This document shows, one piece after another, positions 3,797-60,826 of a stretch of 64,000 bases of DNA. Each line of letters starts with the position of its first letter. Positions within the stretch are counted from its first letter, which is position 1. Under the pieces are notes generated by a model. That model was given only the letters and a program-made list of their open reading frames with translations, was not told the DNA's origin and did not search any database. This stretch comes from Halorhabdus rudnickae (lineage in GTDB: Archaea > Halobacteriota > Halobacteria > Halobacteriales > Haloarculaceae), in contig NZ_CAAHFB010000002.1 in assembly GCF_900880625.1 (NCBI RefSeq), positions 1 through 64,000 on the forward strand, read 5' to 3'. Position numbers and translations under genes: made by a program.

Positions 3797-3857
3797 TCGT
3801 CTTGTCTCGACGTTGTCCCCCACGATTCGTTGCTCTGTCGGATCGTGGACTGCGGTC

Positions 3858-5679: not shown

Positions 5680-5755
5680 ACGCACTATCTTCACAGCCCC
5701 TACAGATAATGCTAGCTCACGGCGAAGTAAGTGGGATCTCGTGCAGAGCGAGGGA

Positions 5756-6709: not shown

Positions 6710-6711
6710 CC

Positions 6712-7269: not shown

Positions 7270-7308
7270 AGCTGAAACTCACGTAGAGGGGTTAAATCTC
7301 CACCTCAC

Positions 7309-7319
7309 GTTACGGTAAC
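7309..7319. promoter_or_regulatory. GTTAC-G-GTAAC palindrome between the CMD-family gene and nnrE
   Basis: A perfect 11-base palindrome in the 129-base gap between two divergent genes. The same GTTAC/GTAAC half-sites recur at 35567-35589 and 37223-37255, next to redox genes, so this may be an operator for one winged-helix regulator. That is inference; no protein is shown to bind. Confidence 0.3.
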
Positions 7320-7398
7320 CTTCTTCCGTTGACACCAGTCAAGTTCAGGTCGGTTCGACCACAAGATGCCGTATGATCGGACACCGTGGTGACTGCGC

Positions 7399-8118
7399 GT
7401 GAATCGTGCCGCATTCCAGACGGGCAACGGCCATCCAGTAACTGCCGTCACGGCCGCAGAGATGCGCGGCGTCGATCGCATCGCCGTCGAAGATGTCGGT
7501 CTCCCACTCTTCTCGATGATGGAGAACGCCGGCCGGAACCTGGCTCGGGTCGTGCGGGAGCGAACCGACGAAGACGAGCCCGTGACGATCCTCGCCGGTG
7601 ACGGTGGCAACGGCGGCGGTGGACTCGCGTGTGCTCGTCACCTCGCCAACCACGGTCGCGACGTCGCGGTTACCCTTGATCGACCCGCTCAAGAACTTAG
7701 TGGCGTGACAGCGACCCAGTACGGCGTTTTGGATGCGATGGACGTCCCTGTCACCATCGCCCCGGACGAACTCCAATCGGACGGGATTATCGTCGATGCG
7801 CTGGTGGGGTACGGACTCGACGGCCCGCTTGGCGGCACCGCGGGGGATCTCGTCGGACGGATTTCCGCCGAAAGCACCGTCATCTCGCTCGACGTGCCGA
7901 CGGGAAGGAACGCGACGACTGGCGAGCAACCAGGAGTCGCCGTTGATACTGACCTCGTGGTCACGCTCGCACTGCCGAAGACGGGGCTGCAGGGACTTGA
8001 TTGCTCCCTGCTGTTGGCAGACATCGGTATTCCTGCCGTGGTGTACGATCGGCTCGACCTCATATACGACGGCCCGTTTGACAGTGAATACGTCCGAGAG
8101 CTGATCGATACGGAATGA
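7399..8118 (+). CDS. nnrE: NAD(P)H-hydrate epimerase (YjeF N-terminal domain only)
   Basis: A 239-residue YjeF_N domain: VTAVTAAEMRGVDRIAVEDVGLP, the MMENAGR motif, and the Gly-rich nucleotide loop GDGGNGGGG, followed by DALVGYGLDGP and SLDVPTGRN. It epimerises damaged NAD(P)HX so that a dehydratase can repair it. Most archaeal versions are fused to the ADP/ATP-dependent dehydratase domain; here only the epimerase half is present and no dehydratase is in view. The start is GTG. A decayed second copy lies at 40107-40350. Confidence 0.88.
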   Translation: MNRAAFQTGNGHPVTAVTAAEMRGVDRIAVEDVGLPLFSMMENAGRNLARVVRERTDEDEPVTILAGDGGNGGGGLACARHLANHGRDVAVTLDRPAQELSGVTATQYGVLDAMDVPVTIAPDELQSDGIIVDALVGYGLDGPLGGTAGDLVGRISAESTVISLDVPTGRNATTGEQPGVAVDTDLVVTLALPKTGLQGLDCSLLLADIGIPAVVYDRLDLIYDGPFDSEYVRELIDTE

Positions 8119-8155
8119 CTGGTCAACGATATTCCTGAACAGATGGCGGCGTGAG

Positions 8156-8170
8156 TCCTCTCTTTTTTCT
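8156..8170 (+). terminator. Pyrimidine-rich tract after nnrE
   Basis: A C/T-rich run containing six consecutive T residues lies about 40 bases after the nnrE stop and 25 bases before the cupin start. Archaeal RNA polymerase often terminates at such T tracts without a hairpin. It could equally be leader sequence of the next gene. Confidence 0.35.
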
Positions 8171-8193
8171 CATTCCGAATCGCAAAGGCGGAC

Positions 8194-8688
8194 ATGAACA
8201 AATTGCGTATCGACGATGTCGAGAACGCTGTTCAGCCGGCGGCAGTGATGCGTCAGCTTACCGACCCCCTCGGGACGACGGATCTTGCAATCAACTACTA
8301 CGAACTCGAACCGGGGGACAGCTTCGCGTTCGCGTATCACAATCACGAAGTCCAAGAAGAAGTGTTCTATATTCAGGAAGGGACAGCCACGTTCGAGACT
8401 GAAGACGGTCCAATAGTGGTTGAGGAAGGCGAACTCATCCGTTTTGACCGCGGGGAATTCCAGCGCGGCTGGAACCGAGGAGACGATCGCGTCCGTGCGC
8501 TCGCGCTTGGTGCGCCATTGGCGTACGGGGAGCAACGCAAACTCCGATACTGTTCGAACTGCGACGAACAGACACACAATCGTCTAGCGAGCGAAAATGG
8601 CGATACGACTATCGTCGCCTACTGTACCAATTGTGGTGGTCAGACCGGGGAGTGGTACGAGGGGTCAATGCAAGGAGAGGTTCCATAA
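8194..8688 (+). CDS. Cupin-domain protein with C-terminal zinc ribbon
   Basis: 164 residues. The single cupin barrel covers about residues 20 to 110, with motif 1 around YHNHEVQEEVFYIQEGTA (metal-type His, His, Glu) and motif 2 around GELIRFDRGEFQRGWN. The C-terminus has two CxxC pairs (YCSNCDEQT and YCTNCGGQT) that form a probable zinc ribbon. The ligand is unknown. The protein is likely cytoplasmic. It stands alone between nnrE and the insertion sequence. Confidence 0.8.
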   Translation: MNKLRIDDVENAVQPAAVMRQLTDPLGTTDLAINYYELEPGDSFAFAYHNHEVQEEVFYIQEGTATFETEDGPIVVEEGELIRFDRGEFQRGWNRGDDRVRALALGAPLAYGEQRKLRYCSNCDEQTHNRLASENGDTTIVAYCTNCGGQTGEWYEGSMQGEVP

Positions 8689-44270: not shown

Positions 44271-44804
44271 TTAGGCCTCGGTGGGCTCTGTCGTTGGAGC
44301 GAGAAAGTCCCATTCGCGGATAGCGAAGCCAACAATCTGAATACGACGCTGCAGGTGCTCCCACTCACGGGCAATCTTACGGCGGCGATCTTCCTCGTCA
44401 GCGTCCAGAGACTCGTCAGCGAGCGTCCCGCGAAGTCGATTCGGCGACTCAACGTCAAATTCGTCTTCCCAGTCTCGGATTTGCGTCTTTATATCAGCAA
44501 GACGGTCCGTGAGTTCTTCGACTGTGTGTCCACTATCTCGAAGACGCATCGCCTCTTGCATCGCCTGGCGGCGATAATCAGGGTAGTACGTCGTGTGAGT
44601 ACCGCTTTCGTCACGGTGGAGAATGCCATCGTCGACGAGCCGTTCGAGGACCCGTTTGGTCGGTTCGTGTGACCAGCCCGCTTCGGAGGCGATCCAGTTT
44701 GCCGTCTGTGGTTCCGACAACTGCCTGGCGACCATCCGCACACGGTCTTCTCCCGTGGTCTGGCGGTTCATCAAGCGCTCGGAGCCCGATTCGTCTTCTG
44801 TCAT
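44271..44804 (-). CDS. Winged-helix regulator/antitoxin (DUF7342-like)
   Basis: 177 residues. An N-terminal winged helix (RMVARQLSEPQTANWIASEAGWSHEPTKRVLERLVDDGILHRDESGTHTTYYPDY) is followed by a coiled-coil region (LTDRLADIKTQIRDWEDEF) that probably dimerises or binds the partner. It resembles a haloarchaeal regulator family often paired with the gene type found downstream. Two near-perfect palindromes lie directly upstream, as expected for autoregulation. Confidence 0.7.
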   Translation of the reverse strand: MTEDESGSERLMNRQTTGEDRVRMVARQLSEPQTANWIASEAGWSHEPTKRVLERLVDDGILHRDESGTHTTYYPDYRRQAMQEAMRLRDSGHTVEELTDRLADIKTQIRDWEDEFDVESPNRLRGTLADESLDADEEDRRRKIAREWEHLQRRIQIVGFAIREWDFLAPTTEPTEA

Positions 44805-45419: not shown

Positions 45420-46184
45420 TCATTCATCGACTGGCCACGAGGGATCGGCGAACTCGTCTTTGATGTAGACGACTTGGATTCCTAACTCAGCACTGATCCG
45501 TTCGTGGTGCCCGTACATGTCTGATTTGTCTGCGGTTACCACCGTATTGACGAGATTTCGGTCGCTCTGATGCGCAGCGTCGGATAGGATTACCTTGTCC
45601 ATGTACCCGTCCACGAATCCAAGACGCTGCCTGCGCTCCGACTTACTGAGGGATCCGGACGGTCCCTGTGTAACCCGGTTCTGAAGTTCTTGCCTCGTCT
45701 CATGGGCTTTGTTTATCACCGTGTCACACAGGCTGTCCAAAGCACGTCTGCCCGACGCGGGAGTGACCTCTTCGTCAGCGAGTGTATCCTCCAACTCGTT
45801 TCGGATGTTGGGTTCGATGTGTTCTTCGATCAACCTTTCTGGCTTGATGCTACCCATCACATCCGTCTCCTCGAGGAATGCCTCAACAAGCGTTTCAATA
45901 TCCAGCTCGTCCTCATCGTAGCCATCCATCCGGAAGTTGAGATTCATCTGGGCGGCGCGAACCTTCGCTAGGGTCGCGCCGAAGAGACCGGCATCCGTGT
46001 CCCAGTCCACGACCGTGTCCTCAAGTCTGCTTGAGTTGCTGTTGTTGCAGTACTCGTAAACGACTGCTCGGCTCGTGTAGAGGCCGTTATCGGTATCGTA
46101 GAGTCGTTCGGCGTCGTCGTGCCACAGGTCGTGTAGGAACGTCAGGCCAACGAGAACGCCGGTGTCAAGAAAGTACCGAGCCAT
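45420..46184 (-). CDS. PIN-domain ribonuclease-like protein
   Basis: 254 residues. The N-terminus MARYFLDTGVLVGLTFLHD gives the first PIN Asp; further acids lie in SRAVVYEYCN, in DGYMDKVILSDA and in TVVTADKSDMYGHHERI near the C-terminus, completing an acidic metal site. A long helical insertion (about 80 to 180) makes it larger than VapC toxins (about 130 residues). It begins at the last base of the upstream gene, so the two are coupled. It probably cleaves RNA. Confidence 0.75.
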   Translation of the reverse strand: MARYFLDTGVLVGLTFLHDLWHDDAERLYDTDNGLYTSRAVVYEYCNNSNSSRLEDTVVDWDTDAGLFGATLAKVRAAQMNLNFRMDGYDEDELDIETLVEAFLEETDVMGSIKPERLIEEHIEPNIRNELEDTLADEEVTPASGRRALDSLCDTVINKAHETRQELQNRVTQGPSGSLSKSERRQRLGFVDGYMDKVILSDAAHQSDRNLVNTVVTADKSDMYGHHERISAELGIQVVYIKDEFADPSWPVDE

Positions 46185-47047
46185 TAGTGCTGGAGTAGGT
46201 CGTTGTCGATGAATGGCGCGACGAAGGCGTCGGCTGCCTCCTTGGCGACCCGAGTATCCTTCGAGTTCCGTCTCGCCTTCTCGCGCTCCTTCCGGCGGAG
46301 TCGCTCTCGAATTTCTTCCTTCGCGCTCTCGACACTGTCGACACCTCGTTCTTCGGCGATCTCCGACCGCGAGAGGTTGTCCTCTCTACACGCGAGTTCA
46401 AGACAGTACAGTCGCCAAAATGACTTCGCAAGCGTCTCTGCGGTCTGAGGGTCATAGTCCTTCGAGTCCAACTCAGCACTCATCAACCGGTACCAGATGT
46501 GAAGATCGTCTTCGTACTGCGGAAAGTCGTCAATCGGGAAGCTCTGGATAAATTTGTGGAGCGTTTCCCGGGTACGCTTTTCGTTTCGGTCGAGGGTGAG
46601 CGTCATCTGTTTGGAGTCGCCAGCCGCGTCGAGCTGCTTGTCCAGTACCCGGAAGTGGCGTTGAACATCGTACGGCGCCTCGTCGTACATCTCGTCGGTT
46701 AATCCCTCGATGCCGCAGTCATAGTAGCGATCTAGTGTGTTGGAGATCGCTCGTCGGGCGCGCTGAATAGTGGTACGAGAGGCATCAATGTCGGAAACCT
46801 CCGTCTCACAGACCACCCGTTGCCCGCCAGTCCCCTCTGTGATTTCGAGAGACGAATCAGACGTCGCAACCACCGCACCCCACATATACCAGTACGTGTT
46901 GATGGTTTCATCAACACGTTCTCTTTCTAACTCTTGCTTTGCAAAGTAGAGGATCTTGTGAAAGGCCTTAGGCCGGATGTCGCTGTTGTAACGCCGCTCG
47001 TCGAACAACAGTGCGGCCACATCGTCCAGATTGAGAGAGTCGGGCAT
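46184..47047 (-). CDS. Helical partner of the PIN protein (possible Panacea/SocA-like N-terminus)
   Basis: 287 residues, mostly helical. The N-terminal stretch FHKILYFAKQELERERVDETINTYWYMWGAVV loosely follows the Panacea/SocA antitoxin pattern (KLLYFA ... WGPVV). The C-terminal third is a charged coiled coil with an HTH-like segment (LSRSEIAEERGVDSVESAKEEI). It shares one base with the PIN gene (stop and start overlap) and is divergent from the Argonaute operon, 107 bases away. A control or antitoxin role is likely but not shown. Confidence 0.5.
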   Translation of the reverse strand: MPDSLNLDDVAALLFDERRYNSDIRPKAFHKILYFAKQELERERVDETINTYWYMWGAVVATSDSSLEITEGTGGQRVVCETEVSDIDASRTTIQRARRAISNTLDRYYDCGIEGLTDEMYDEAPYDVQRHFRVLDKQLDAAGDSKQMTLTLDRNEKRTRETLHKFIQSFPIDDFPQYEDDLHIWYRLMSAELDSKDYDPQTAETLAKSFWRLYCLELACREDNLSRSEIAEERGVDSVESAKEEIRERLRRKEREKARRNSKDTRVAKEAADAFVAPFIDNDLLQH

Positions 47048-47154
47048 CGCGGGACTTCTGATTGCTCGTTAACACGCCTCCGTCTTATCCGCTACGGGAG
47101 CGATTGTTCGCTGCACCCGACATTTTTTGCACTGGGCCGCGGTAAGCAGCGTTA

Positions 47155-48633
47155 GTGACGTTCGAGAACCTTGAGGGGGAACAAGAGTCCAGTCACCACA
47201 AAGCGGAGATGTATCGGCGCCGGGTTCGGGACTACCTCGAAGCTGGCGAATATTTGGAGGTTGGTGACAGCTATGCGGGCACATCTGATATTGTCTTGTC
47301 CCGACCGGCTCACGCAGAGGACAAGAAGTTCCGCGTCGAGACCAAGAACACCAAACTCTCTCTGTTCGACGACGGTTTCATCGACGAACTAGCCCGTCAG
47401 TTCATTGACTTTGCGCGCTCTGAGAGGCCAGAGTTCGAATTCATGGTATTCGCCGACGACTACGCCAGTCAGTCGCGGTGGAAAGACATCTTCCACGACC
47501 GAATCAGGAAAGAAGAAGAGGTGCGGACATACTACGAGGAGTTGGATGATAGACACGATCTAAACGAAGCGGAAGCAGACCAATTCGAGTCACTCGAATT
47601 TCGAGACTTCTGGCGGTTTCTGGAGCAGGTAAGCATCAAAAAAGCGGGATATGAGCGACTCGGCGAACTCATTGAAGATCGCGAGTCACAGAATCGTGGA
47701 GACAAGAAGTGGGACTTCTACACTCGTGAGAACGAACCTGTAAAGGAGCGCGGGAATCCCACTCCGAACTTCGTCCGAATCGTCGGTCTACCCAACGAGA
47801 TCTGGACACTGCGGAGTCTGGCCCCCGAGTACCATGACGTGTATGATCAAAACCCGCGTTATCTTCCAATCTGGTTCCAGAGTGGTCAAATGTACAGCCT
47901 GATACCACCTGGAGAAATGCCCGATTCACTCGTGAAGTTCGTGAACACGGACACGGCGGAGCGTCACGACTTTACGGAGTGGATGAGTCAGACCGGCGAC
48001 CAACACAACCGCCGAGTTATCGCCCTGTTGAATCGGCAAGTGCTGTGGCGCGGTGTTCGCCGCCACGACCGCTGCGTCGGCATTCGCCACCGTGGCCAAC
48101 ACAAGCTCATCATTCAGAGGGATAGAGAAATCGACCAAAATTCCGATGAGACCAGGCAACAGGAGTTGTCAGGAACTCTAATACCCTCAGAGGAGGACGA
48201 ATCGGGGGCTAATCAGGAGTTCAAGGGATACGTCGCCCTGAAGGACTGGGGTACTGCCTACGCACACCGGTACGGGACGCCCGTGGTGAAGCAGTATGGC
48301 GACCAATACTATGTCTTCGTTGAGACAGGGTGGTTGTTCACCGAGCGTGGGCGTGGCGACTCGTTCATCAGTGGCGACCGTGCCGACGAGCTTCACAATC
48401 AACTGAACAAGAACTCACTGTCTCGGAACCCCAATCAAAAAAGCCAGTTCAGACAGTGGCGAGACTATCTCGGTCTCGACGAAGGACGGGGTGGTCACGC
48501 GAGCATCCCAGGAACGGAAGGGCAGCGGATGACCTTCGAGGACGCAGTTGACATTCACCTCCGAGAGCGGCCACCGAAGAACACCGAGGAACGGGACGCA
48601 CTGATGGCTGGAGAAGCCGTGGTGGAACGATGA
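47155..48633 (+). CDS. Nuclease-APAZ protein, partner of the short Argonaute (SPARDA-like)
   Basis: 492 residues. The N-terminal 130 residues form a PD-(D/E)xK-type nuclease: Asp in YAGTSDIVLS and ExK in FRVETKNTKLS. The rest has the place and size of an APAZ domain (for example FVRIVGLPNEIWTLRSLAPEYHDVY and WLFTERGRGDSFISGDRADELHNQLNKNSLSRNPNQ), which stands in for the N-PAZ half of Argonaute. The start is GTG. Its stop overlaps the Argonaute start (ATGA). In SPARDA systems such a subunit degrades DNA when the complex senses an invader. Assignment of the subtype rests on motif reading only. Confidence 0.75.
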   Translation: MTFENLEGEQESSHHKAEMYRRRVRDYLEAGEYLEVGDSYAGTSDIVLSRPAHAEDKKFRVETKNTKLSLFDDGFIDELARQFIDFARSERPEFEFMVFADDYASQSRWKDIFHDRIRKEEEVRTYYEELDDRHDLNEAEADQFESLEFRDFWRFLEQVSIKKAGYERLGELIEDRESQNRGDKKWDFYTRENEPVKERGNPTPNFVRIVGLPNEIWTLRSLAPEYHDVYDQNPRYLPIWFQSGQMYSLIPPGEMPDSLVKFVNTDTAERHDFTEWMSQTGDQHNRRVIALLNRQVLWRGVRRHDRCVGIRHRGQHKLIIQRDREIDQNSDETRQQELSGTLIPSEEDESGANQEFKGYVALKDWGTAYAHRYGTPVVKQYGDQYYVFVETGWLFTERGRGDSFISGDRADELHNQLNKNSLSRNPNQKSQFRQWRDYLGLDEGRGGHASIPGTEGQRMTFEDAVDIHLRERPPKNTEERDALMAGEAVVER

Positions 48634-50042
48634 GCGACTTTGACCTCCGCCGGATAAGGGAAACCGAATTGCTGTTCGCCGATGGTGAAACGGCGAAGGA
48701 TCCCCGCGGAGGGCTTCTGAAGTACGGCCCCCGCCCTCGGGCGAATACAGAGGAGGAGGTCGTGAACGTCGGGATTGTCGGGGACAGTCGGTCGATCTCG
48801 ATGATGGAGGAACTGCTCCGGAAGATGCGAACCGGCATTCCGAACAATTCTAATCGGAAGCGATGGCGACAACCATTCCCGGGACTCGGAGTCGACTCGC
48901 GCCTCCAGTTCGACTACCAGACGCACGAAAAGTGGAAGGGGCGGATCCGTCAGAAGGATATGGACACGATTGCCGAGATACCCGACCGAGAAGAACGCGT
49001 CCAACCCGCCATAAGACACCTGAAACACCAAATCGCCGGGCTTGGGTCACAAACGCCCCCTCCCGACATCACGTTCGTTGCCATACCCGAGCGTTTCGTG
49101 GAACTCTGTGCCGACCCGAATACGGATACCGACCGGATTCAAACCAAGAACAGCGATTTCCGGAGTCAGATCAAGCTCGCGGGGATGGAAGTTGGTACAC
49201 CCACGCAGTTGATGTCGCCGAAGGCGCTGCGCGGGGGTTCTGACGTACAGCACCGCTCTGAGTTCGCGTGGAACATCGCCGTCGGGATGCTCTACAAAGC
49301 CCGCGAGGGCAGGCCTTGGAAGACGGCGAGTTTCGACAGCCAGCAGTGTTACGCCGGCATCTCGTTCTACAGAGAGCGGGGCACCGACCCAGACGTCAGG
49401 GCATCGATCGCACAGGTCTTCATAGAGGGCGGAGAGAACTTCGTCATTCGCGGCGACCCCGTGCAAGACATCGCTAGCGACGAAGCGCAGACTCACCTCT
49501 CGTACGCAGACGCCAAGCGGTTGGTTGAAAGCATCCTTGAGAAGTACGGCGACTATCGCGACTCACAACCGAATCGGCTCGTCCTTCACAAGTCGTCCAA
49601 CTTCTGGCCGGAGGAGAGTGAGGGGTTCAATGACGGTGCCGCCGATGTGAACGTGAAGGAATTCGTCACCATCAGAAACCATCACCCACTCCGTCTCTTT
49701 CCGGAAGGTGACAATCCGCCGTTGCGGGGGACGCTCGCCCTCCCTCCTGACCGGAGCGAGGGGTACCTCTACACCACCGGATACGTACCAGAGCAGTCCG
49801 TGTACAACGGGCCGGGCGTGCCCACCCCCATCGTCGTCAGACCTCACGAGGAGTACTTCAGCGGCGATTACCGGCGAATCTGCCGTGAGATACTTACGTT
49901 CACCAAACTGGACTGGAACAGTTCGGATTTCTGCAAGCGACTCCCCGTCACTATCGGAATCGCGAATTCCGTGAGCGAGATTCTCGCCGAACCGAACGCG
50001 GACGACATCAACCTAGAGACCCACTATTACTATTATATGTGA
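48630..50042 (+). CDS. Short prokaryotic Argonaute (MID-PIWI)
   Basis: 470 residues. The opening ETELLFADGETAKDPRGGLLKYGP matches the entry signature of short pAgos. PIWI landmarks follow: CYAGISFYRERG, LVLHKSSNFWPEESEGF, FVTIRNHHPLRLFPEGDNPPLRGT, and the C-terminal LPVTIGIANSVSEILAEPNADD ending in HYYYYM, whose carboxylate contacts the guide 5' phosphate and metal in this family. The catalytic DEDx tetrad is not evident, so the protein is probably a guide-directed sensor and the partner supplies nuclease activity. Coupled by ATGA overlap to the partner gene. Confidence 0.88.
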   Translation: MSDFDLRRIRETELLFADGETAKDPRGGLLKYGPRPRANTEEEVVNVGIVGDSRSISMMEELLRKMRTGIPNNSNRKRWRQPFPGLGVDSRLQFDYQTHEKWKGRIRQKDMDTIAEIPDREERVQPAIRHLKHQIAGLGSQTPPPDITFVAIPERFVELCADPNTDTDRIQTKNSDFRSQIKLAGMEVGTPTQLMSPKALRGGSDVQHRSEFAWNIAVGMLYKAREGRPWKTASFDSQQCYAGISFYRERGTDPDVRASIAQVFIEGGENFVIRGDPVQDIASDEAQTHLSYADAKRLVESILEKYGDYRDSQPNRLVLHKSSNFWPEESEGFNDGAADVNVKEFVTIRNHHPLRLFPEGDNPPLRGTLALPPDRSEGYLYTTGYVPEQSVYNGPGVPTPIVVRPHEEYFSGDYRRICREILTFTKLDWNSSDFCKRLPVTIGIANSVSEILAEPNADDINLETHYYYYM

Positions 50043-50746: not shown

Positions 50747-51154
50747 TCACTCCCCGCCGAGTTCCGAAAGCCGAGCCTGAATTTCCTCAGCATCCGCCTC
50801 AGAGAGGGCCTCGATACCGAACTGCACGAGTAGGGGGTAGAAGTGGCGGTTCTTCTTAAATTCGTCCTGACCCGCCTTGCGGAGCTTCAGCTGGGACTCG
50901 AGATAGATATCCTCCATCTCGTCGAGGACATCGTCGGGAATGTAGATCGTCCGCCCGTTCCACTCGTCCTTGATATTCGTCTTCGTTTTGCTCGTTTCGT
51001 TCGTTTCACTCGTTGAAGTCGATTCGGTCGTTTCGGTCGATGAACTAGTTTCCACCGTTTCACTCACCTCACTCGTTTCGCCGGAATCGACCTCATCGTC
51101 CTCCTCTTCGTAGTTGCCCTCGATGCCGGAAGCATCACCCCAGCCGTCGCTCAT
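50747..51154 (-). CDS. ParB-like partition partner protein
   Basis: 135 residues. The first 60 are a low-complexity acidic Ser/Thr/Glu region written as three-residue (S/T)E(S/T) repeats; the C-terminal half (GRTIYIPDDVLDEMEDIYLESQLKLRKAGQDEFKKNRHFYPLLVQFGIEAL) fits a small DNA-binding or ribbon-helix-helix type domain. It overlaps the ParA gene by four bases, the usual place of a ParB or CopG-like partner. The repeat region is made of the same 9-base DNA units found upstream of parA. Confidence 0.65.
   Translation of the reverse strand: MSDGWGDASGIEGNYEEEDDEVDSGETSEVSETVETSSSTETTESTSTSETNETSKTKTNIKDEWNGRTIYIPDDVLDEMEDIYLESQLKLRKAGQDEFKKNRHFYPLLVQFGIEALSEADAEEIQARLSELGGE
50985..51085. repeat. 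9-base-phased TTCGTT-type repeats inside the ParB-like gene
   Basis: About eleven units of 9 bases with a CGTTT or TCGTT core at the same phase, coding the Ser/Thr/Glu linker. The same unit and phase occur in the non-coding arrays at 51971-52281, so the coding stretch may double as DNA binding sites. Confidence 0.55.
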
Positions 51155-51969
51155 GCTTCCACCTCCTCAGGTGCGGTCTTTTCGAACGTCTCGTCGAACA
51201 GGTCGGCGATCTCGTTGAAGAGCTCACGAGCGTCCTCGACGCGCTTGTTCTCCTTCCCGAAGCCAAAGACGGACACACCTTCGCCAATCGACTGAGAGAG
51301 ATCAGTTCGCTTCGGGATCTCGAAGAGGGGGAGCGAGTATGCCGATTTGATCTCCTTGATGGTGTCATTGTGCTCTGCATTCTGCTCCACACGGTTGCAG
51401 ACAATCGCGAGACGGTTGATGCCACCATATGCCGGCTCCAGAGAGCTTAGCTGCTTCGCGAAAATCTGGAGGCTGTTGGCGTTGAGCTTCTCGGGAATGA
51501 CGGGGATGACAACGTTGCCGGTCGCGACCAGGGCGTTGTCGGTTAGGACGTTCAGGGATGGCGGTGTGTCGATGATAATGTAGTCGTAGTCCCTATCGAG
51601 TTCGTCGAGAGTCATCCCCAGTCGTTCTCGACTCTTCGGCGCCTCAAGCAACGTCTGGATGTTCTTGTTGTTCGCGAGCTTTTCGCTCGCAGGGAGGATG
51701 TCAAATTCCTCGTGCTCGACGATGATATCGTTAACCGATTCCATCTGGTCGAAGTCGAGGACGTCGAACAGCGTTGTGCGGTCGGTATCGTAGTACAGAT
51801 CGTTGTAGCCAAGCGAGCAGGTGAGCCCACCGTGATAGTCGATATCGACCAGGAGGACATCGTGGTCTCGGGCAGAGAGTGCGCCGCCAGTATGAATGAC
51901 ATCGGTTGTTTTCCCCGCGCCTCCCTTCTGATTCGCCACCGTGATTCGTGCGGTGTTGGTGTCGGTCAT
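51151..51969 (-). CDS. ParA-family partition ATPase
   Basis: 272 residues with deviant Walker A KGGAGKTT, Walker A' VDIDYHGGLT, Walker B YIIIDTPPSLN and switch VIPVIPEKLNANSL. Such ATPases move plasmids or chromosome origins apart with a centromere-binding partner. The size fits plasmid type Ib/haloarchaeal Soj proteins without an N-terminal HTH. It is followed by the ParB-like gene with a four-base overlap, and preceded by phased repeats that are the probable centromere and operator. Confidence 0.88.
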   Translation of the reverse strand: MTDTNTARITVANQKGGAGKTTDVIHTGGALSARDHDVLLVDIDYHGGLTCSLGYNDLYYDTDRTTLFDVLDFDQMESVNDIIVEHEEFDILPASEKLANNKNIQTLLEAPKSRERLGMTLDELDRDYDYIIIDTPPSLNVLTDNALVATGNVVIPVIPEKLNANSLQIFAKQLSSLEPAYGGINRLAIVCNRVEQNAEHNDTIKEIKSAYSLPLFEIPKRTDLSQSIGEGVSVFGFGKENKRVEDARELFNEIADLFDETFEKTAPEEVEA

Positions 51970-52200: not shown

Positions 52201-52281
52201 GTTCGTTCCTCAGAATTCGTTCAATCCATTCATTTTTCTCGTTCTGTTCGTTTTGCTCGTTGAATTCATTAAACTCGTTCC
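52201..52281. repeat. Phased TTCGTT repeats, distal block
   Basis: Nine 9-base units, six close to consensus, in a fixed phase. Together the three blocks fill most of the 421-base gap between parA and the AbiE-like pair, which has no gene. No replication initiator gene is seen in the window. Confidence 0.55.
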
Positions 52282-52376
52282 GCGTATTTTCAGCGGGATC
52301 AGGGCTACCTTCGAGATAAGTGGAAAGATCGTGCTTTACGGCCAGTCTAGTAAGACTTTTAACTATTACCAGATTA

Positions 52377-52387
52377 TTGGTAACCAA
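52377..52387. promoter_or_regulatory. TTGGTAACCAA palindrome upstream of the AbiE-like pair
   Basis: A perfect 11-base palindrome ending three bases before the start codon, positioned to block translation or transcription. A likely autoregulatory site for the winged-helix antitoxin. Confidence 0.4.
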
Positions 52388-52390
52388 CAG

Positions 52391-53065
52391 ATGTATGAGG
52401 TACTCGACGATACGGCAGCACAGACTATCCTCGCCATCGATAGTGGTGACTCCATCCGCCGTGTCGCCCAACACCTCCACACGCCGTACGAGACGGTACG
52501 ACAGGCCGTCAATCGGCTGGAAGACGTAGGCTACGTCCGCTATGATGACGGCCTCTCAGTCGCCGATGACCGCGTGAGAGACGCAGCACGAGAGCTCGTC
52601 GCTGCCAGCGCCGGCGTCAGTCCACCCACCATCGAAGAAGCCTACGTCATTCCACAATTCGGCGACTGGCCGTTCGCATTCACGCGGATCGACGCCGTCT
52701 ACGTGTGGACCCAAGGGGGCTACCAAGTTGGACGGAATCCGGATGACTATCCATTGTTCCTCGCTGTTCGTGAGCAGGACGTCGACGCCTGGGAGACATT
52801 TTTCGAATCGTTCAACCTCCCCATCGCATTCGAGCGAGAGCCCCGAGACGAGTTGGACGGACCGCTGCAGATCGTTCTCGAACCACGCGCGTCACTCGAA
52901 ATCGAGCACGTCGAGGGGTACCCGGTGGTCCCGAGAGCAGAGACGATCGAGTATATGCGCGAGAACTACGCCCAGTTCCAATCGGCGCTGGCGATGATCA
53001 ACCGGATGTACGAGGACCTCGACCTCGGCGTCACATATCGAGAGACTAAACGGGCACAGCCATGA
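52391..53065 (+). CDS. Winged-helix antitoxin-like protein (AbiEi-type role)
   Basis: About 224 residues. An N-terminal winged helix (TILAIDSGDSIRRVAQHLHTPYETVRQAVNRLEDVGYVRYDDGLSVADDRV) is followed by a C-terminal domain of mixed strands and helices (AFTRIDAVYVWTQGGYQVGRNPDDYPLFLAV). The start at 52391 (MYEVLDD) fits; the 46 upstream codons run through repeat DNA. It overlaps the nucleotidyltransferase gene by four bases. Such HTH plus nucleotidyltransferase pairs act as type IV-like toxin-antitoxin and phage-defence modules. Confidence 0.65.
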   Translation: MYEVLDDTAAQTILAIDSGDSIRRVAQHLHTPYETVRQAVNRLEDVGYVRYDDGLSVADDRVRDAARELVAASAGVSPPTIEEAYVIPQFGDWPFAFTRIDAVYVWTQGGYQVGRNPDDYPLFLAVREQDVDAWETFFESFNLPIAFEREPRDELDGPLQIVLEPRASLEIEHVEGYPVVPRAETIEYMRENYAQFQSALAMINRMYEDLDLGVTYRETKRAQP

Positions 53066-53757
53066 GCTTCAATAACCGAAGTGACGCACTCATCGAACTA
53101 CTCGAAAAGCTCACCCAAGAGGGCCACGAGTACGTTCTCGTCGGTGGCTACGCAGTCTCAGCATTCAATGCTCGCTTCTCAACGGACCTCGATATTGTCG
53201 TCGCGCCGAACTCCAAGGCTAACTTCGTCGAGTTCCTCGAACAGCGGGGCTTCAAGGAAACGGACAGCCACGCAAAGGAGTGGTTCTACGACACCGAAGT
53301 GATCGAGCACGAGAAGCGGCTCACGCCGCAACAGCCGATCGGCTTCGATCTCTTGGTAAACGGACTCGGGTGCCGCCAGACCGAGGCGCAGTGGTCGTTC
53401 GACTACTTGTACAATCACAGCCACCAACAGGAGGTGAGCGGAGGCACAGTAACGACGACGGCTAGAGTCATCGATGGGGCTGTTCTCGTGGCGGCAAAGC
53501 TCCACAGCGGCCGCGAAACAGACCTTCGGGACGTCCTAGCAGTGGCAGAAGAAATCGACCTCAACGCTGTCACGCCTCACCTGCTGCGAGGGGACGACGA
53601 TGCACTACGGGAGCAACTTGAGCGGGGACTGAAGATCCTGGAAAGCGACGAACTCAAGCACGGATATCGAAGTGACTTCGGGGCCTCAGCGGTCTCAGAA
53701 GAAACAGTCAGCGATCTCCAAGAGTATCTGACAGAGAAGATAAACAGGTTGAATTGA
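53062..53757 (+). CDS. Nucleotidyltransferase toxin-like protein (AbiEii/MenT-type role)
   Basis: 231 residues with a nucleotidyltransferase core: the VLVGGYAVSAFNARFSTDLDIVV motif (GG ... DxD metal-binding acids) and a Lys-containing helix (VLVAAKLHSGRETDLRDVLAVA). Proteins of this fold paired with an HTH gene transfer nucleotides to tRNA or other targets and stop growth. Coupled by ATGA overlap with the upstream winged-helix gene. The biochemical target is unknown. Confidence 0.75.
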   Translation: MSFNNRSDALIELLEKLTQEGHEYVLVGGYAVSAFNARFSTDLDIVVAPNSKANFVEFLEQRGFKETDSHAKEWFYDTEVIEHEKRLTPQQPIGFDLLVNGLGCRQTEAQWSFDYLYNHSHQQEVSGGTVTTTARVIDGAVLVAAKLHSGRETDLRDVLAVAEEIDLNAVTPHLLRGDDDALREQLERGLKILESDELKHGYRSDFGASAVSEETVSDLQEYLTEKINRLN

Positions 53758-53815: not shown

Positions 53816-56800
53816 CTACTTGACAAAGTCCATCATCAGTCGAAGTTCAGATTCTATTTCCGCCATCTGATCCGGCTCCCAATGGAACCGTTCCTCTATC
53901 CCCTCGTCAGTAAACCGGAGTGAAGCTCGTACGTCACGATTCCGGTCATGTTGAAGTAGTGCGAGAGCGTATGCGAGCATCTGCGGTCGATAGTGTGCCG
54001 CGAGCTCATCCGATGTCGTAGCTGAGAGGTCGTTGGTCTTGTAGTCAATAATGTGGAAGGCATCCGGTGTAACGAGCAGCCGGTCGATATCACCGACAAT
54101 CCGCGACTCCTCAATTCGAGCTACAACTGAGTACTCGTCGTAGACCGCTTGGAGCTGGGCATCGGCCTCTACGTGATCCACGAATTTGACTGCATCAGCA
54201 GCGTGGTTGACAGCATCACGGAGGTCTGCTTCTGTCGGCTCCTCACCGGTCATCTGACTCAAACGGCGGATCAGAGTGGTCCACTCATCTCTCGGCGGTC
54301 GGAGTTCGTTGATCCGGTGGACGACCGTCCCGAACGTCGTAGGGCTCAGGCCCGCCGACTCCTCACGTTGAGAGTAGCTGTGACCGTCTGTAGACGCGTC
54401 TGCCGCCGCATTCACGAGCGTCGTGGCCGCGATCCGTTTCGCCGGCGCTAGCGACGGCGGTGACGGAATCGATATTTCCGGTGCTGGATCAACAGCCTCG
54501 TCGTCGGTATGCCAATCTACTGGACGTGGCGGCATGCGAACGGTATAACTGGCCCCATCCATCTCGCCACGGGCCTGTCCATCTCGAATCGCCTCGACGA
54601 CGAGTGCTCTATCGAGGATGGCTGGCTGTAACCAGTCGCGCCACCGGTCCGCATCGTCAAAGGCAGCAGACTCGCCGAGTTCGATTGCACCGGATTCATC
54701 GACATCGATGTCGTGTGTGCCGCAAAGAAGGAGGTGATCCCGTGTTCGTGTACACGCAACGTAGAGGAGCCGTTTCGACTCCGCCCTCTCCTGTGGACGG
54801 GACTGTCGGTCGGCGTACTCGTGGACAGCCGTCTTCTCGATCGAGAACGCATCGCCCGGATTCGGTCCACCGACCGCCGGCACCGGCGGTGCGTCATCAG
54901 TTCCGTCCACGAGTCGAACGTACCCGTGGTCATCCACGGAGCGACCGAAGTTGAGACTACTCCCGAGATCAGGGATGGTAACGATCGGGAACTCGAGTCC
55001 CTTCGCAGAATGAATCGTCATAATTCGGACCCCTTCAGCGTCACCCGGAATATCTGCCTCCCCCTCACGAGGGTCGATCTCGGCTTGGCGGTCGATCCGA
55101 TGGAGCAGTCCAGCAGCTGTGTGGACCCCACTCTCGCTCCACGTGCGGACCTGGTCGCGAAACTTCTCAACGTTCGCGACGGCCTGTCGACCGCGTTCGT
55201 CAGCACTCACACTCGCCAGATACCCGGTGTCGTCGATCACCCGAGACAACAGGCGGTTCCACGGGAGCACACCATTTTCGGACGGCGTCGCACAGCCGCT
55301 GAGGATCCGCCACGTAGTGAGGAGGTCAAAAGCGTCCGCGAGCTGTGGATCGTCTGTCTCGGCGAGCGCGTCCCATACTGAATCGGCCTCTGCGACCGCC
55401 GGCGCGAGGCGATCATCCGCGAATCCGAACAGCGGCGACCGAAGCACCCCATAGAGGGAGACATCGTCCTGTGGATCACCGAGTACTCGAAGCAGGTTCG
55501 TGAGCGCCTGGACCTCAGGCGTATCGTAGAACCCGATGCCACCGACGACAGTATAGGGGATGTCGCACTCCTCAAGCGCGCGCTGATACCGGTCCAGATG
55601 TGTTCGCCGGCGAAGGAGGATTGCCGTGTCGTCCGGCGTAGCGGACCGATGAACGCCCGTGTCGGGGTCTTGGACTTGCGGCGGATCGTCGAACAGGTGG
55701 GTCAGTCGAGCAGCGAGCGCTTGTGCCTCGGCCTCGATGGTGTGGTCGAGTGCGCCTTCGGCGACCGGGTGGTCGTCGCCAAAGAGCTCTGCCGCCGTGT
55801 CAGCGTCGTCGGGGACAGCGAGATACTCGACGCTCCCGGTCAGTCCCTCGATGTCTTCGACACGGTCGCGCTGCGTGGTCAACTCCTGCGGTGGTGCTTC
55901 GTACGGTTCGTGCGTATCCCCTTCCGGCTGGAACAGGTACTCGAAGAGCTCGTTCAGGAACGATAGCGGCTCGTCCAGTGTCCGGAAGTTCCCGGAGAGT
56001 TCGAGTGCGGTCGGACTCTCGGCCTCGCTGTCGGGGACGTCGTCGACAGCACGGGCTTCGTTGACGGTCTGGAGTTCTCTGCGTGCATCCCCAAACGTCG
56101 TCACATCGGCGCCACGGAACCCGTAGATACTCTGTTTCTCATCGCCGACCAGGAAGACGTTCGACGCCGTCCCCTCGTCGACGCCCGTGAGGAGTTTGAC
56201 TAACTCCCACTGGCGCGGGTCCGTGTCCTGGAACTCGTCGACCATCACGGCCGCGAACTGCTCTCGTAGCCGCTCTGTGACGGCATCATTAGCTCCCAAG
56301 AACTCGAGCGTCGTCTCGATCACGTCAGGAAAGTCCAGCGTATCGCGGCGGTCCTTCTCGGCAGTGTAGGCTGCGAGGACATCGTCGAAGACTCGCATCA
56401 GGGCGAGCGCGTAGTGAGCGCTATTCGCTTCCAGTTCCCCCGGCGTCGTCTCGACTGCATCCGCGTGTGGTTCGACGGCCGCGATGACCGCGTCGATGGC
56501 GTCCTTGAGATCGTCGTAGACGTCACCGTACTCACCCCAATCGTCCCGGTCACCGACGACGTACCCCGAACTGCTGTACAGGCCGCCGTTCTTCTTCTCA
56601 CAGGCCTCGTATAGCTCGAGGATTGCCCGCTGACAGTCGCGGGGATCGCTTTCCTGGGAATTGTCAGGGAGTGTCGTCGCGACCTCGGTGAGGGTCCGGT
56701 AGGCCCGAAGGCCGTCCCCGTCGTCGATAGCGCCCTCGCGGTCGACGCGGTCCGCGACCGTGCGTAGCTGTTCAAGGAGTCCCTCCGCATACAGCGTCTG

Positions 56801-57451
56801 TCGAGCGTCGGCAACGTCGAGATCGCAGACGACCTCCCAGCAGATATCGACGTAGTCGTCGACGTCGGCGTCACGCCACGCCTCGAGAACGGACTCGCTC
56901 TGGGGGCGCTCATCGAGTAATCCAGCGAGTACATCGACCAACTGGTCGCGACCCCAGAGCTGGGCAAGGAGCGCAACATCGTCATCGTCCTGATTGCGTT
57001 CGAGGAACTCCGTCACGACTTCGCGCTGGAGTGTCGCGGCGCCGTCTTCATCGAGCACGTCGAAGCCGAGCGGGACCGGAGCCTCGACGGCCCGTTCTCG
57101 CAAGAGTCGCGTACAGAACGCGTGAATTGTGTGGACGTAGCCGTCCTCCAGGTCGTCAAGGACGTTTCGCCAGCGGTTGTAGGCCTCTGGTGAGTCGACA
57201 GCCTCGAGCCGGTCGTACACCTCTTCCCGAACGCGCTCGGTCAGTTCGGCAGCCGCCTTTCGCGTGAAGGTGATCGTGACGATGTTCTCCGGCGTGAGCG
57301 ATGGGTTTTCGGCCAGGATCGTCACGTAGCGCTCGGTGAGTGTTGTCGTCTTCCCCGTCCCGGCGCCGGCAGTGATCGCGACGTTCCGGCCTTGGACGAG
57401 CGCGTCCTCCTGTTCCTCCGTGAGCTGAATCTCCTCGGGGTCCTCAGTCAT
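53816..57451 (-). CDS. AddA-like UvrD/Rep helicase with C-terminal nuclease
   Basis: 1211 residues. Superfamily 1A helicase motifs in order: AITAGAGTGKTTTLTERY (Walker A), TFTRKAAAELTERV, VMVDEFQDTDPRQWELVKLL, IMTIHSAKGLEFPIV and RLLYVACTRTRDHLL. The C-terminal 230 residues form a RecB-type nuclease with GDIDRLLV and HIIDYKTND (Asp and DxK), then the QxxxY-like LAAHYRPQMLAYALAL. Together with the overlapping gene upstream it forms an AddAB-type double-strand-end processing machine for recombination or destruction of foreign DNA. Confidence 0.9.
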   Translation of the reverse strand: MTEDPEEIQLTEEQEDALVQGRNVAITAGAGTGKTTTLTERYVTILAENPSLTPENIVTITFTRKAAAELTERVREEVYDRLEAVDSPEAYNRWRNVLDDLEDGYVHTIHAFCTRLLRERAVEAPVPLGFDVLDEDGAATLQREVVTEFLERNQDDDDVALLAQLWGRDQLVDVLAGLLDERPQSESVLEAWRDADVDDYVDICWEVVCDLDVADARQTLYAEGLLEQLRTVADRVDREGAIDDGDGLRAYRTLTEVATTLPDNSQESDPRDCQRAILELYEACEKKNGGLYSSSGYVVGDRDDWGEYGDVYDDLKDAIDAVIAAVEPHADAVETTPGELEANSAHYALALMRVFDDVLAAYTAEKDRRDTLDFPDVIETTLEFLGANDAVTERLREQFAAVMVDEFQDTDPRQWELVKLLTGVDEGTASNVFLVGDEKQSIYGFRGADVTTFGDARRELQTVNEARAVDDVPDSEAESPTALELSGNFRTLDEPLSFLNELFEYLFQPEGDTHEPYEAPPQELTTQRDRVEDIEGLTGSVEYLAVPDDADTAAELFGDDHPVAEGALDHTIEAEAQALAARLTHLFDDPPQVQDPDTGVHRSATPDDTAILLRRRTHLDRYQRALEECDIPYTVVGGIGFYDTPEVQALTNLLRVLGDPQDDVSLYGVLRSPLFGFADDRLAPAVAEADSVWDALAETDDPQLADAFDLLTTWRILSGCATPSENGVLPWNRLLSRVIDDTGYLASVSADERGRQAVANVEKFRDQVRTWSESGVHTAAGLLHRIDRQAEIDPREGEADIPGDAEGVRIMTIHSAKGLEFPIVTIPDLGSSLNFGRSVDDHGYVRLVDGTDDAPPVPAVGGPNPGDAFSIEKTAVHEYADRQSRPQERAESKRLLYVACTRTRDHLLLCGTHDIDVDESGAIELGESAAFDDADRWRDWLQPAILDRALVVEAIRDGQARGEMDGASYTVRMPPRPVDWHTDDEAVDPAPEISIPSPPSLAPAKRIAATTLVNAAADASTDGHSYSQREESAGLSPTTFGTVVHRINELRPPRDEWTTLIRRLSQMTGEEPTEADLRDAVNHAADAVKFVDHVEADAQLQAVYDEYSVVARIEESRIVGDIDRLLVTPDAFHIIDYKTNDLSATTSDELAAHYRPQMLAYALALLQHDRNRDVRASLRFTDEGIEERFHWEPDQMAEIESELRLMMDFVK

Positions 57452-60400
57452 CGCTCATCACCGCCTCGATGTCCTCGTCGTCGCGAACACGGAGCGGGAC
57501 GTACGCACCATCGTCCTCGTGAACCTCGTCGACGAACTCCCGCTTGCGGTGGTGGCGGACATCGCACGCCCGTCGGTAGTCACAGTATCGGCAGTTCGCA
57601 CCACGGGCCGACAAGAGCGTCGTATGGAACCGTCCGTTGGCGATTGCCTCGTCGATCTGTCCCAGCCACTCCGGAACGACGTCATTCAGGAAGCGACGAA
57701 GGTCGACCTCTGAATCAAACTTCGACTCGACCCCGCGTGGAACCTTGAGGTCGTTGGGGGGTCGCACCTGGTAGTACGTCGCTGAGAGCGAGCCCTGCTC
57801 GAATAGGTCACCGTCGACAATCTCGGCGGCAGCGAGTAAATAAATGGGGAGCTGGAACTTCGTGCCGCCGGTCGTCTTCGTCATATACGGTGCTCGACCA
57901 GTCTTGTAGTCGTACAGCGTGAGCGTCGGTTGCTCACCGTCACGGCTCACGTCAACGCGGTCGATGTACCCACGAATCGAGACAGTCGAGCCGTCCGGTC
58001 GCACAACCGTGAACGGCCCAGCATCCGAGTCGGGAAGTCCCTCGCCGAACGGGGCTTCGAACAGGTGTGGGCGGCCGGCGCCATCCCGTGAGAGTTCGTT
58101 GTTGAGGAAGGTAGCGAACAATCCTTGTTCCGGTGCGTCGTGGGGTTTGCTCCCGGCATCGTACGGGGCGGTCTCATCGTCAGTGAGGCCCGCGAACAAC
58201 TCCGCTTTCCACCGTTCGTAGAACAGGCCGTCGTACTCAAAGTCAGTATCCCGGAGTTCCTCGACAGCGATCTCGCGAAGGTGCGTCGCCAGGTCGTCCC
58301 GGTCGAACGCAGCGAGATCGACACCATCCTCAGTCTCGTCCTGCAGATCCGCGAAGAATCGTTCGAGGACATCGTGGACATACGACCCGGTTTCGAGGGG
58401 CGTGGGGACAACTTCGACGTCGTCGGGGTCCTCGATTCCGAGTACCTTGTCGGCGTAGAACTTGAACCCACACTCGACATATCGCTCGATTCGACTCGCG
58501 CTGTAGGGTTCCCGTTCTGACGAAGGGTATACCTCATCGACTGTCTCGGGTTCTAACACGCCATCGTGTTCGGAGAGGCTAGCCGTTCCCCTGTTGTCCG
58601 CACAGTGGAGTCCACGATCTGTACGCTTGGTCTGCTCGGGGGAGAGGTCACCTCGGTCGCCGGCGCGGCTGACTGCCCCACGCCGGTCGTCCGTCGTAGC
58701 GACGCGCCGCTGGAGATCTTCGCGGGAGCCCACGCGGTCGTCGACGCCGTCTTCGGGGTCGATGCCAGTCACGCGCTGGAGTTCGTCGAGGACCGGCGAC
58801 CGCACGACGGCTGATTCGTCGTCGCCTGTCTCCGGTGTGGTGATCGTGAGCTCGTCGACGTTCGCGAGGAGCGTCGCGAAGAGATAGCGGCCACGGAGGC
58901 GCTCGTCGCCAGTGTCGAACCGTGGGTGGGCGTCGGTCATCTCCTCGAAGAAGGCCGGGCGTTCCGGCGTCACCGGGAAGTGCTCGCTCGTCAGGCCCAC
59001 GAGGAACACCTTCTCGAACGACCGCATCCGGGCGTCGAGCAACCCCATCACTTCGACGTGGCCGCCAGCAGCACGCTGCGGAACCCGGATCGGCACGCCG
59101 TCGAACGCACGGGTGAACAGTGCCAGCGGAGAGAGATCACTATTGACCGCCGCCAGCGACTCGAACGAGGAGAGAACCTCGTCCACGATGTCGTAGGCTC
59201 GCTGTTCGACGGCTTGCTCGGCGCCGCTGGCGTAGTCCTCCGTCGCCGCCTCCAAGTCGAAGCGGTCGTCAATCAGCCGTCGGAGAATCTCGGTTGCGTC
59301 CTCGACGTCGCCCGTTCGGAGGGTCTCCAGCGTGGCCAGCAGCTCTTCCACCAGTGACGTGACCTCGCCGTCGACGTCGTCGAGCAGGGGCGACACAGAA
59401 ACGGTGTCGCGCCGACGAGCAGCTGCCGTGACGGCGTTGGCCTGGTCGGTGTCGACGATGTCGACCAGCGGATTCGCCAACAAGGATGTGAGATCCTCAG
59501 CACGCGGATCAGGTTCGGCCAGATTCAGCAGATCGTGAACGACGCTCCCGGTAAACGTCTGGTTCAGCTGTGATGCGGCTGTCGTGACGTGGGGAATGTC
59601 GAACGTATCGAACGTGTCCTCGACGTACCCCGAATAGGCCTCCGTCCCTGGGACAACGACAGCCAGGTCGTCGGGATCGCGACCATTAGCCAACTCAGTC
59701 CGTAGCTCGCGAGCGACGAAGCGAATCTCGCGCTCGGGCGTCGGGAGTTCCCGCCACCGGAGACCGTCTGGAACAGAGACGGTGGCGGGATCCGGGCGGT
59801 AGAGTGACTCGGTGATCGTACCGAAGGCCCGCCCGGACTCGTTGACGGGCTCAATATCCACTCTCTCAAAGTCAAGTGCTTCGTAGACTTCCAAGGCGTC
59901 CTCCGCAACAGTGTCGACTCCGCCCCGACCATCCTGGTGGAGTGGCAGCAGCGCAATCACCGGGAGTTCGTCGACGATGCGTTCGATGAGGCGGCGTTCG
60001 ACAGGACGGAATTCATGATACCCCGATAGGACCACGACGTCCAGTTCCGGAGAGAGGGCTGAGAGTGGCTTCTCTGTCGTCGCGACTGCAGCGAACATCT
60101 CTCCCCGGGTACAGACCCACTCATCAATGTAGTCAGCATTGAGGTCCTGGTAGTAGCGGTACGCGTCGACGGTAGCTGTCGCGATACGGTCATCGAGGGG
60201 TGAGCCCTCGAACTCCGCCGCCAGTGCGTCGGCAGTCCCGACACCGGCGTCATCGAAGAGTGAGAAACGGCTACTGAACGAATCGGCGAGAGCAGCCGAG
60301 GCGGGTTCGCCGACGAGAGCCCCATCTGTATCGGCTGTCGTTCTATCGAGCGCGTACTCCGCCAGCCGGCGATTCAACTGCCCGGAGAGTGGTTGGACCG

Positions 60401-60632
60401 GGCCCAGGAGATCCTCGTACCACTCTCGAACGACCGCATCGAGCGTTTCGGCACGAAGACGGAGCGGATCGTGCGACGCGGCCCAATTGTCCTCAACTTC
60501 ACTCCTACGAGCGTCATTCCGGGTAATATATAGAACTGAACCAAGAATGTCATCAGCCACCTGGTCCGCCCGTTCAAAAGCAGCTTGTTCCAAACGTGAA
60601 TGTTGGGGACCAGTTAGAAGCGTTTTGTGCAT
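57444..60632 (-). CDS. AddB-like helicase-nuclease subunit with Fe-S cluster
   Basis: About 1062 residues. A Walker-A-like start (MHKTLLTGPQHSRLEQ) is degenerate. The C-terminal third holds a PD-(D/E)xK nuclease (GYIDRVDVSRDG then LYDYKTGRAPYMTK) and the four Cys of an AddB-type iron-sulfur staple: one in YVECGFKFY and three in CRYCDYRRAC. The start at 60632 is preferred over 60668. It overlaps the AddA-like gene by eight bases. No recombination-hotspot gene is nearby. Confidence 0.85.
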   Translation of the reverse strand: MHKTLLTGPQHSRLEQAAFERADQVADDILGSVLYITRNDARRSEVEDNWAASHDPLRLRAETLDAVVREWYEDLLGPVQPLSGQLNRRLAEYALDRTTADTDGALVGEPASAALADSFSSRFSLFDDAGVGTADALAAEFEGSPLDDRIATATVDAYRYYQDLNADYIDEWVCTRGEMFAAVATTEKPLSALSPELDVVVLSGYHEFRPVERRLIERIVDELPVIALLPLHQDGRGGVDTVAEDALEVYEALDFERVDIEPVNESGRAFGTITESLYRPDPATVSVPDGLRWRELPTPEREIRFVARELRTELANGRDPDDLAVVVPGTEAYSGYVEDTFDTFDIPHVTTAASQLNQTFTGSVVHDLLNLAEPDPRAEDLTSLLANPLVDIVDTDQANAVTAAARRRDTVSVSPLLDDVDGEVTSLVEELLATLETLRTGDVEDATEILRRLIDDRFDLEAATEDYASGAEQAVEQRAYDIVDEVLSSFESLAAVNSDLSPLALFTRAFDGVPIRVPQRAAGGHVEVMGLLDARMRSFEKVFLVGLTSEHFPVTPERPAFFEEMTDAHPRFDTGDERLRGRYLFATLLANVDELTITTPETGDDESAVVRSPVLDELQRVTGIDPEDGVDDRVGSREDLQRRVATTDDRRGAVSRAGDRGDLSPEQTKRTDRGLHCADNRGTASLSEHDGVLEPETVDEVYPSSEREPYSASRIERYVECGFKFYADKVLGIEDPDDVEVVPTPLETGSYVHDVLERFFADLQDETEDGVDLAAFDRDDLATHLREIAVEELRDTDFEYDGLFYERWKAELFAGLTDDETAPYDAGSKPHDAPEQGLFATFLNNELSRDGAGRPHLFEAPFGEGLPDSDAGPFTVVRPDGSTVSIRGYIDRVDVSRDGEQPTLTLYDYKTGRAPYMTKTTGGTKFQLPIYLLAAAEIVDGDLFEQGSLSATYYQVRPPNDLKVPRGVESKFDSEVDLRRFLNDVVPEWLGQIDEAIANGRFHTTLLSARGANCRYCDYRRACDVRHHRKREFVDEVHEDDGAYVPLRVRDDEDIEAVMSDD

Positions 60633-60826
60633 CGAATACAATCCAACAAGAGGTTCGCCCCACTTCACTTTTAGCGAGACAATTCATGAAAGCGTGGCGG
60701 CATCCGCGGTGATACGAGAGGAGGGACAGTACTCGGAAGCAGTCATCTTTCAAGGCTGGCGGAGACAACGATCCGGCAACGGTTGTACGGACTTTTTAAG
60801 TTCGCCGGTTCCAAATCCACCGTTGA

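Follow-up and report, generated by a model that had tools for sequence, protein, structure and literature searches.

A short Argonaute gene in the haloarchaeon Halorhabdus rudnickae is part of a unit of four genes, in which a core of a nuclease-APAZ protein and the Argonaute lies beside a divergently transcribed pair encoding a PIN-like RNase and a 287-aa protein. We read this unit, with a probability of about 0.55, as a defence system that combines an RNA-guided nuclease core with a pair acting either as a toxin-antitoxin-like guard or as a second, RNA-cutting effector. The analysis covered a stretch of 64,000 nucleotides, here called the window. The original prediction had placed a partner and an Argonaute at 47155-50042. 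Both open reading frames sit at those positions, and the partner precedes the Argonaute with an ATGA overlap. The core genes were thus correctly called, but the extent was too narrow, because the conserved unit spans 45420-50042 and two divergent genes belonging to it had been missed. The features are as follows.

45420..46184, minus strand: PIN-like RNase gene, 254 aa, acidic site D7, E44, D196 and D219, assigned also by synteny
46184..47047, minus strand: gene of the 287-aa protein, divergent from the core, N-terminal part weakly Panacea-like
47048..47154, no strand: intergenic region separating the divergent gene pairs, 107 bp
47155..48633, plus strand: nuclease-APAZ partner, 492 aa, GTG start, PADLOC PDLC02417 Aga_REase_Archaea 534 bits
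47155..47715, plus strand: N-terminal PD-(D/E)xK nuclease domain of the partner, residues 1-187, invariant D45, E62 and K64
47743..48567, plus strand: APAZ domain of the partner, residues about 197-471, from profile, fold and hhalign
48630..48633, plus strand: ATGA stop/start overlap of partner and Argonaute
48630..50042, plus strand: short Argonaute (MID-PIWI), 470 aa, PIWI predicted inactive, PADLOC pAgo_I 461 bits
49161..49298, plus strand: predicted MID pocket for the guide 5' end, Argonaute R178, K182, Q193, N215 and K223

The core

Strong PADLOC scores, and the conservation of both genes across dozens of haloarchaeal loci, indicate that partner and Argonaute are not chance reading frames. 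The GTG start of the partner is supported because the homologous proteins begin at the equivalent position (MSWENLEG or MPIYNHEG). Pfam and NCBIfam gave no useful match for either protein, and PADLOC PDLC02417 aligned with partner residues 35-490 over profile positions 10-415 of 416. When the partner alone was searched against the PDB with phmmer, only noise was returned, and a profile is therefore needed to detect its structural relatives. A profile of 18 partner homologues matched SPARDA and SPARHA (HNH-APAZ) chains within APAZ, at E about 1e-10 over model positions 194-454, and left the nuclease parts of the same chains unmatched. By hhalign, the C-terminal half of the partner scored 99.5% against bacterial DUF4365-APAZ proteins and 97.8% against SMEK-APAZ proteins. 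In an AF2 model of moderate confidence (pLDDT 73, pTM 0.53), residues 197-471 superpose on the SPARDA APAZ domain 9qbl_A (Z 17.5, rmsd 4.1, 223 residues). Profile search, hhalign and predicted fold thus bear out the APAZ domain that had been proposed for the partner.

The N-terminal part of the partner had been predicted to carry an ExK nuclease. E62 and K64, together with D45, are invariant in 18/18 homologues, and their spacing is that of a PD-(D/E)xK site, which upholds the prediction. A DUF4365 (DREN) nuclease, as the SPARDA-like label would imply, was not supported. Pfam DUF4365 (PF14280) gave no match at E 1 in the 18 partner members, and hhalign of the N-terminal halves returned 0.07% against bacterial DUF4365 and 0.05% against SMEK domains. 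The motif is ExK and not QxK; the DREN domain of NbaSPARDA has D41, Q60 and K62 (PMC12205087), and Q62 and K64 are named in the study of TmuRE (PMC10810196). The Argonaute is also not nested among the DUF4365-linked Argonautes. Since hhalign fails even between DUF4365 and SMEK, its silence concerns families and not the PD-(D/E)xK superfamily. As judged by sequence, the domain is a member of the PD-(D/E)xK superfamily outside the DUF4365 sequence family. The label SPARDA-like therefore applies to the short Argonaute, APAZ domain, PD-(D/E)xK nuclease and gene order, but not to the DREN domain.

The best single-domain fold matches of partner residues 5-186 were two chains of the Lamassu nuclease LmuA, 9hr5_C (Z 10.7) and 9nxx_B (Z 10.5). 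The superpositions give rmsd 4.0-4.4 over 162-170 residues (4.4 over 170 for 9hr5_C) from a moderate-confidence model. SPARDA chains align to the partner model over both domains jointly. We take the LmuA nuclease to be of the Cap4-like class, and on the basis of this model the partner nuclease may be Cap4-like as well. The Cap4_nuclease profile (PF14130) gave no match at E 1 in the 18 partner members, and a search with it found none in 99 haloarchaeal genomes or in the control genomes.

The Argonaute matches PADLOC pAgo_I over its full length and consists of MID and PIWI only; N and PAZ are absent from the polypeptide. Its best PDB sequence matches are 9om4_B of SPARHA (5e-57) and then 9jsb_A of NbaSPARDA (1e-51), and the Argonautes of XauSPARDA and Enhydrobacter SPARDA are further solved relatives. 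The DPRxGLLxYGP opening and the C-terminal HYYYYM, singled out in the original prediction, are both kept across the family. NbaAgo residues R183, K187, N232 and K240 are reported to bind the guide (PMC12205087), and R178, K182, N215 and K223 of the window Argonaute align with them. The haloarchaeal set keeps K182, Q193, N215 and K223 without exception and has either Arg or His at position 178; in Crt-SPARTA, His207 and Lys211 serve the same guide-binding purpose (PMC11156904). Conservation of the MID pocket implies that the guides would be RNA. In PIWI, two catalytic Asp positions are Ser (GIS and HKS, against GID and HRD in a long haloarchaeal Argonaute, L034), and the domain is predicted to be catalytically dead through loss of the tetrad.

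Placement in a prokaryotic Argonaute tree also agreed with the expectation of a short Argonaute. The tree contained 16 haloarchaeal Argonautes and bacterial Argonautes that, in plasmid records, lie next to a partner annotated as DUF4365, SMEK or TIR. The haloarchaeal proteins form one lineage (support 100/100), apart from the DUF4365-, SMEK- and TIR-linked groups. When the tree, which covers TIR-, DUF4365- and SMEK-linked Argonautes, was rooted with long and split Argonautes on long outgroup branches, the short side was supported at 99/96 and the window protein fell inside it. Whether the haloarchaeal lineage lies nearer to the DUF4365/SMEK branch or to the TIR branch changes with rooting. The closest named relative of the window Argonaute is from Halorubrum tebenquichense DSM 14210 (96%).

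One alternative is that the core is an ordinary SPARDA system (DREN-APAZ plus short Argonaute) and that the PIN and 287-aa genes ride along on the same mobile segment as passengers. APAZ and Argonaute are clearly related to SPARDA components, as this would require, but the nuclease is not DUF4365 by sequence and carries ExK instead of QxK. The passenger part of this explanation is taken up with the linkage data below.

The divergent pair and its linkage to Argonaute

Gathering loci through Argonaute or partner homology yielded 31, many of them near copies. The order PIN gene, 287-aa gene, divergent gap, nuclease-APAZ gene and Argonaute gene is found in 30 of them, some with a broken member. 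The exception (L068) has an intact Argonaute, only the APAZ C-terminus of the partner, and no pair. Identities across the loci fall as low as 20% for the partner, 36% for the Argonaute, 22% for the PIN protein and 27% for the 287-aa protein, and because they reach such low values, the linkage of the pair to the core is old. The intergenic gap is 91-179 bp across the compared loci, with its sequence kept among close relatives only. In two loci a core gene, the nuclease-APAZ gene in L056 and the Argonaute gene in L058, is split, with some 1 kb or more of additional sequence between its parts, and the PIN/287-aa pair is open.

A survey of 293 genomes of the order found the partner in 22, at 23 loci, with the PIN gene adjoining it in 23/23 cases. 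Given this adjacency, neither a chance origin nor passenger status of the pair was judged likely. The same genomes hold 24 strong PIN matches, and all 24 adjoin an Argonaute, 23 beside the partner and one in a genome (G157) where the pair adjoins a different Argonaute, split into N-terminal and MID-PIWI halves. That locus (L083, G157:C7:25000-40000, 2941-8391) carries the pair with halves of 332 aa (N-terminal) and 436 aa (MID-PIWI), and also encodes a 438-aa protein without a profile match. Two other loci (L081 and L082) have an Argonaute and neither partner nor pair; in L082 (G163:C3) the partnerless short Argonaute is followed by an 834-aa ATPase with a weak HmaC/DUF499 match and a 910-aa open reading frame. 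Outside the haloarchaea, a genome of the same phylum (G392) has the nuclease-APAZ/Argonaute core with neither pair gene adjacent and no PIN match, and the pair is therefore not required by every such core. No such pair occurred in the bacterial plasmid operons inspected, and no relative was found in viral contigs. A contig scan with one protein as the query recovered only four relatives.

The linkage bears on the passenger explanation. The module is often on plasmids, and HTH, nucleotidyltransferase and ParA genes are common to several loci, as expected of a shared mobile segment. However, the pair stays adjacent even at 20-30% protein identity and with differing other neighbours, and it is linked on small and large replicons and beside the split Argonaute. 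Together with the mismatch of the nuclease, these data make an ordinary SPARDA system with two passengers an improbable account of the unit.

The surroundings in the window were inspected as well. At 52253-53757 there are genes of an HTH protein and an AbiEii-like nucleotidyltransferase, 87-92% identical in seven other Argonaute loci and present also on pHMA155; they are probably a shared plasmid backbone module. At 50747-51969, genes of a ParA-type ATPase and then of a 135-aa protein rich in Ser, Thr and Glu fit a plasmid contig (C2, 148,899 bases). An AddAB-like pair at 53816-60668 comprises a UvrD helicase with a PD-(D/E)xK end and a second PD-(D/E)xK protein, and 44271-44804 encodes a DUF7342 protein (189 bits) of a winged-helix-like haloarchaeal family. 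PADLOC and Pfam scans, covering ten large window proteins, detected no second complete defence system beside the unit. The Haloarcula marismortui plasmid pHMA155 bears the module, with Argonaute, partner and adjoining genes all annotated as hypothetical proteins.

The start of the PIN gene and the stop of the 287-aa gene share one base. Pfam PIN profiles gave weak matches in 10 of 18 PIN-family members (best 1e-4), and the window protein scored 17.3 bits against PF01850, below the curated cut-off of 23.6. All Argonaute-linked copies have acidic residues at positions D/E7, E/D44, D196 and D219, and D219 is Asn in 4/6 stand-alone PIN relatives. Pfam yielded nothing for the 287-aa protein, and the Panacea/DUF4065 profile (PF13274) matched none of 17 family members. 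Its N-terminal part has a weak likeness to Panacea, for which hhalign gave 1.7% with close homologues and 62% once distant ones were added. An AF2 model of the protein (pLDDT 86) had no clear fold match in the PDB; the structure matches that were returned, common four-helix bundles and a DarTG complex chain (Z 8.0), were discarded as evidence.

Distant relatives of the pair occur away from any Argonaute, for example beside SecY or GmrSD genes. Five such stand-alone, Argonaute-free loci (L084, L085, L086, L089 and L093) lie in haloarchaeal genomes, and these relatives make up an undescribed two-gene family that may be of the toxin-antitoxin kind. Two loci (L047 and L069) have a disrupted 287-aa gene next to an open PIN gene that retains its active site. 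Unless the breaks are sequencing errors, this combination is hard to square with an essential antitoxin.

The main rival to a guard or effector role is guide biogenesis, in which the pair would produce the guide RNAs of the Argonaute or load them. Such a guide-biogenesis unit would fit the strict adjacency to Argonaute, including one different, split Argonaute, the active site kept in all Argonaute-linked PIN copies, and a MID pocket that implies RNA guides. However, the bacterial relatives examined and the G392 genome are without such genes, related pairs are found away from any Argonaute, and divergent transcription points to a separate promoter for the pair. On this balance a guide-making function seems unlikely. 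A more general statement can be put forward tentatively: the pair would function within an Argonaute pathway of haloarchaea, making guides or policing the core, and would have been recruited by two kinds of Argonaute.

A possible mode of action

In nuclease-linked short Argonaute systems, RNA-guided detection of invader DNA triggers an unspecific nuclease (PMC10810196, PMC12205087), and from homology the core most likely works in the same way. The MID domain would grip an RNA guide at its 5' end, and the APAZ domain would substitute for the missing N/L1/L2 lobe. Pairing of the guide with invader DNA would then gather partner proteins, and the gathered N-terminal PD-(D/E)xK domains would cut DNA unspecifically, with cell death or arrest, or plasmid clearance, as the outcome. 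Gene content, domains, fixed synteny, conserved catalytic residues and the short-clade placement are shown by the data above; for this core we infer the types of guide and target, activation by oligomerisation and DNA as the substrate, and the entire role of the pair is likewise deduced.

The PIN RNase and its 287-aa neighbour are probably a toxin-antitoxin-like pair. Its transcription would start in the intergenic region shared with the core and run in the divergent direction, and the pair would guard the Argonaute core or serve as a second, RNA-cutting effector. The toxin-antitoxin-like reading is favoured because the frames touch, the RNase comes second, the RNase site is present, and stand-alone relatives occur free of Argonaute. 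There is a haloarchaeal parallel, in which CRISPR-Cas is rendered addictive by a guarded toxin, CreTA (PMC8501985).

It is also conceivable that the PIN RNase is activated directly by the Argonaute core, in which case recognition of a target would lead to destruction of RNA as well as DNA. The conserved active site and the synteny are compatible with this, and short Argonaute systems with two effector domains are on record (PMC10810196). The PIN protein, however, has no recognised APAZ or other Argonaute-docking domain and is coupled to the 287-aa gene rather than to the Argonaute operon, and direct activation is accordingly quite doubtful.

Comparison with known systems

The window partner is a full-length member of the PADLOC system Aga_REase_Archaea (PDLC02417) with pAgo_I. 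Since this partner family was already in PADLOC in 2023, the core is known. Ryazansky et al. 2018 (PMC6299218) reported no domain besides APAZ in archaeal APAZ group III, which is probably the same partner family; the N-terminal part of the window partner, in comparison, is a conserved PD-(D/E)xK nuclease. PADLOC and the accessible parts of that paper make no mention of the PIN and 287-aa genes. A search of the openly accessible literature, with subscription papers outside its range, yielded no paper that joins a PIN domain with a short Argonaute. What is new is the PIN/287-aa pair as part of the unit; neither gene was found described in an openly searchable paper.

With SPARDA (NbaSPARDA and XauSPARDA) the unit shares the order of the core genes, the fold of APAZ, the MID pocket, an inactive PIWI and an N-terminal nuclease of the PD-(D/E)xK superfamily. 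The SPARDA nuclease has 146 aa and D-QxK, whereas the domain described here has about 187 aa and D-ExK, without DUF4365 profile similarity, and is joined with a separate Argonaute lineage and two extra conserved genes. SPARHA of Acidithiobacillus caldus (HNH-APAZ plus short Argonaute, PDB 9om4) has the Argonaute that is the best PDB sequence match and an APAZ domain matching at Z 14.9, but its nuclease is HNH and not PD-(D/E)xK. SMEK-APAZ with short Argonaute follows the same nuclease-APAZ plan, with the APAZ halves related as given above, but the SMEK nuclease domain has no profile similarity to the window nuclease. Lamassu LmuA, the best single-domain fold match of the N-terminal domain, had no sequence match that we could find. 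LmuA acts with the SMC-like LmuB and not with an Argonaute. The pair resembles VapBC-type PIN toxin-antitoxin pairs in its two genes, touching frames and PIN acidic site, but the 287-aa protein matches no known antitoxin family. Adaptation to high salt, to which the original prediction attached interest, is expected in any haloarchaeal protein.

By this comparison, DREN and SMEK are not the only PD-(D/E)xK domains in nuclease-APAZ systems; at least one more is in use. The unit bears on two general questions about short Argonautes: where their RNA guides come from, and how cells coexist safely with a suicide nuclease. Because an RNase pair is locked to the Argonaute core in this unit and its hosts include genetically tractable species, both questions are directly testable here.
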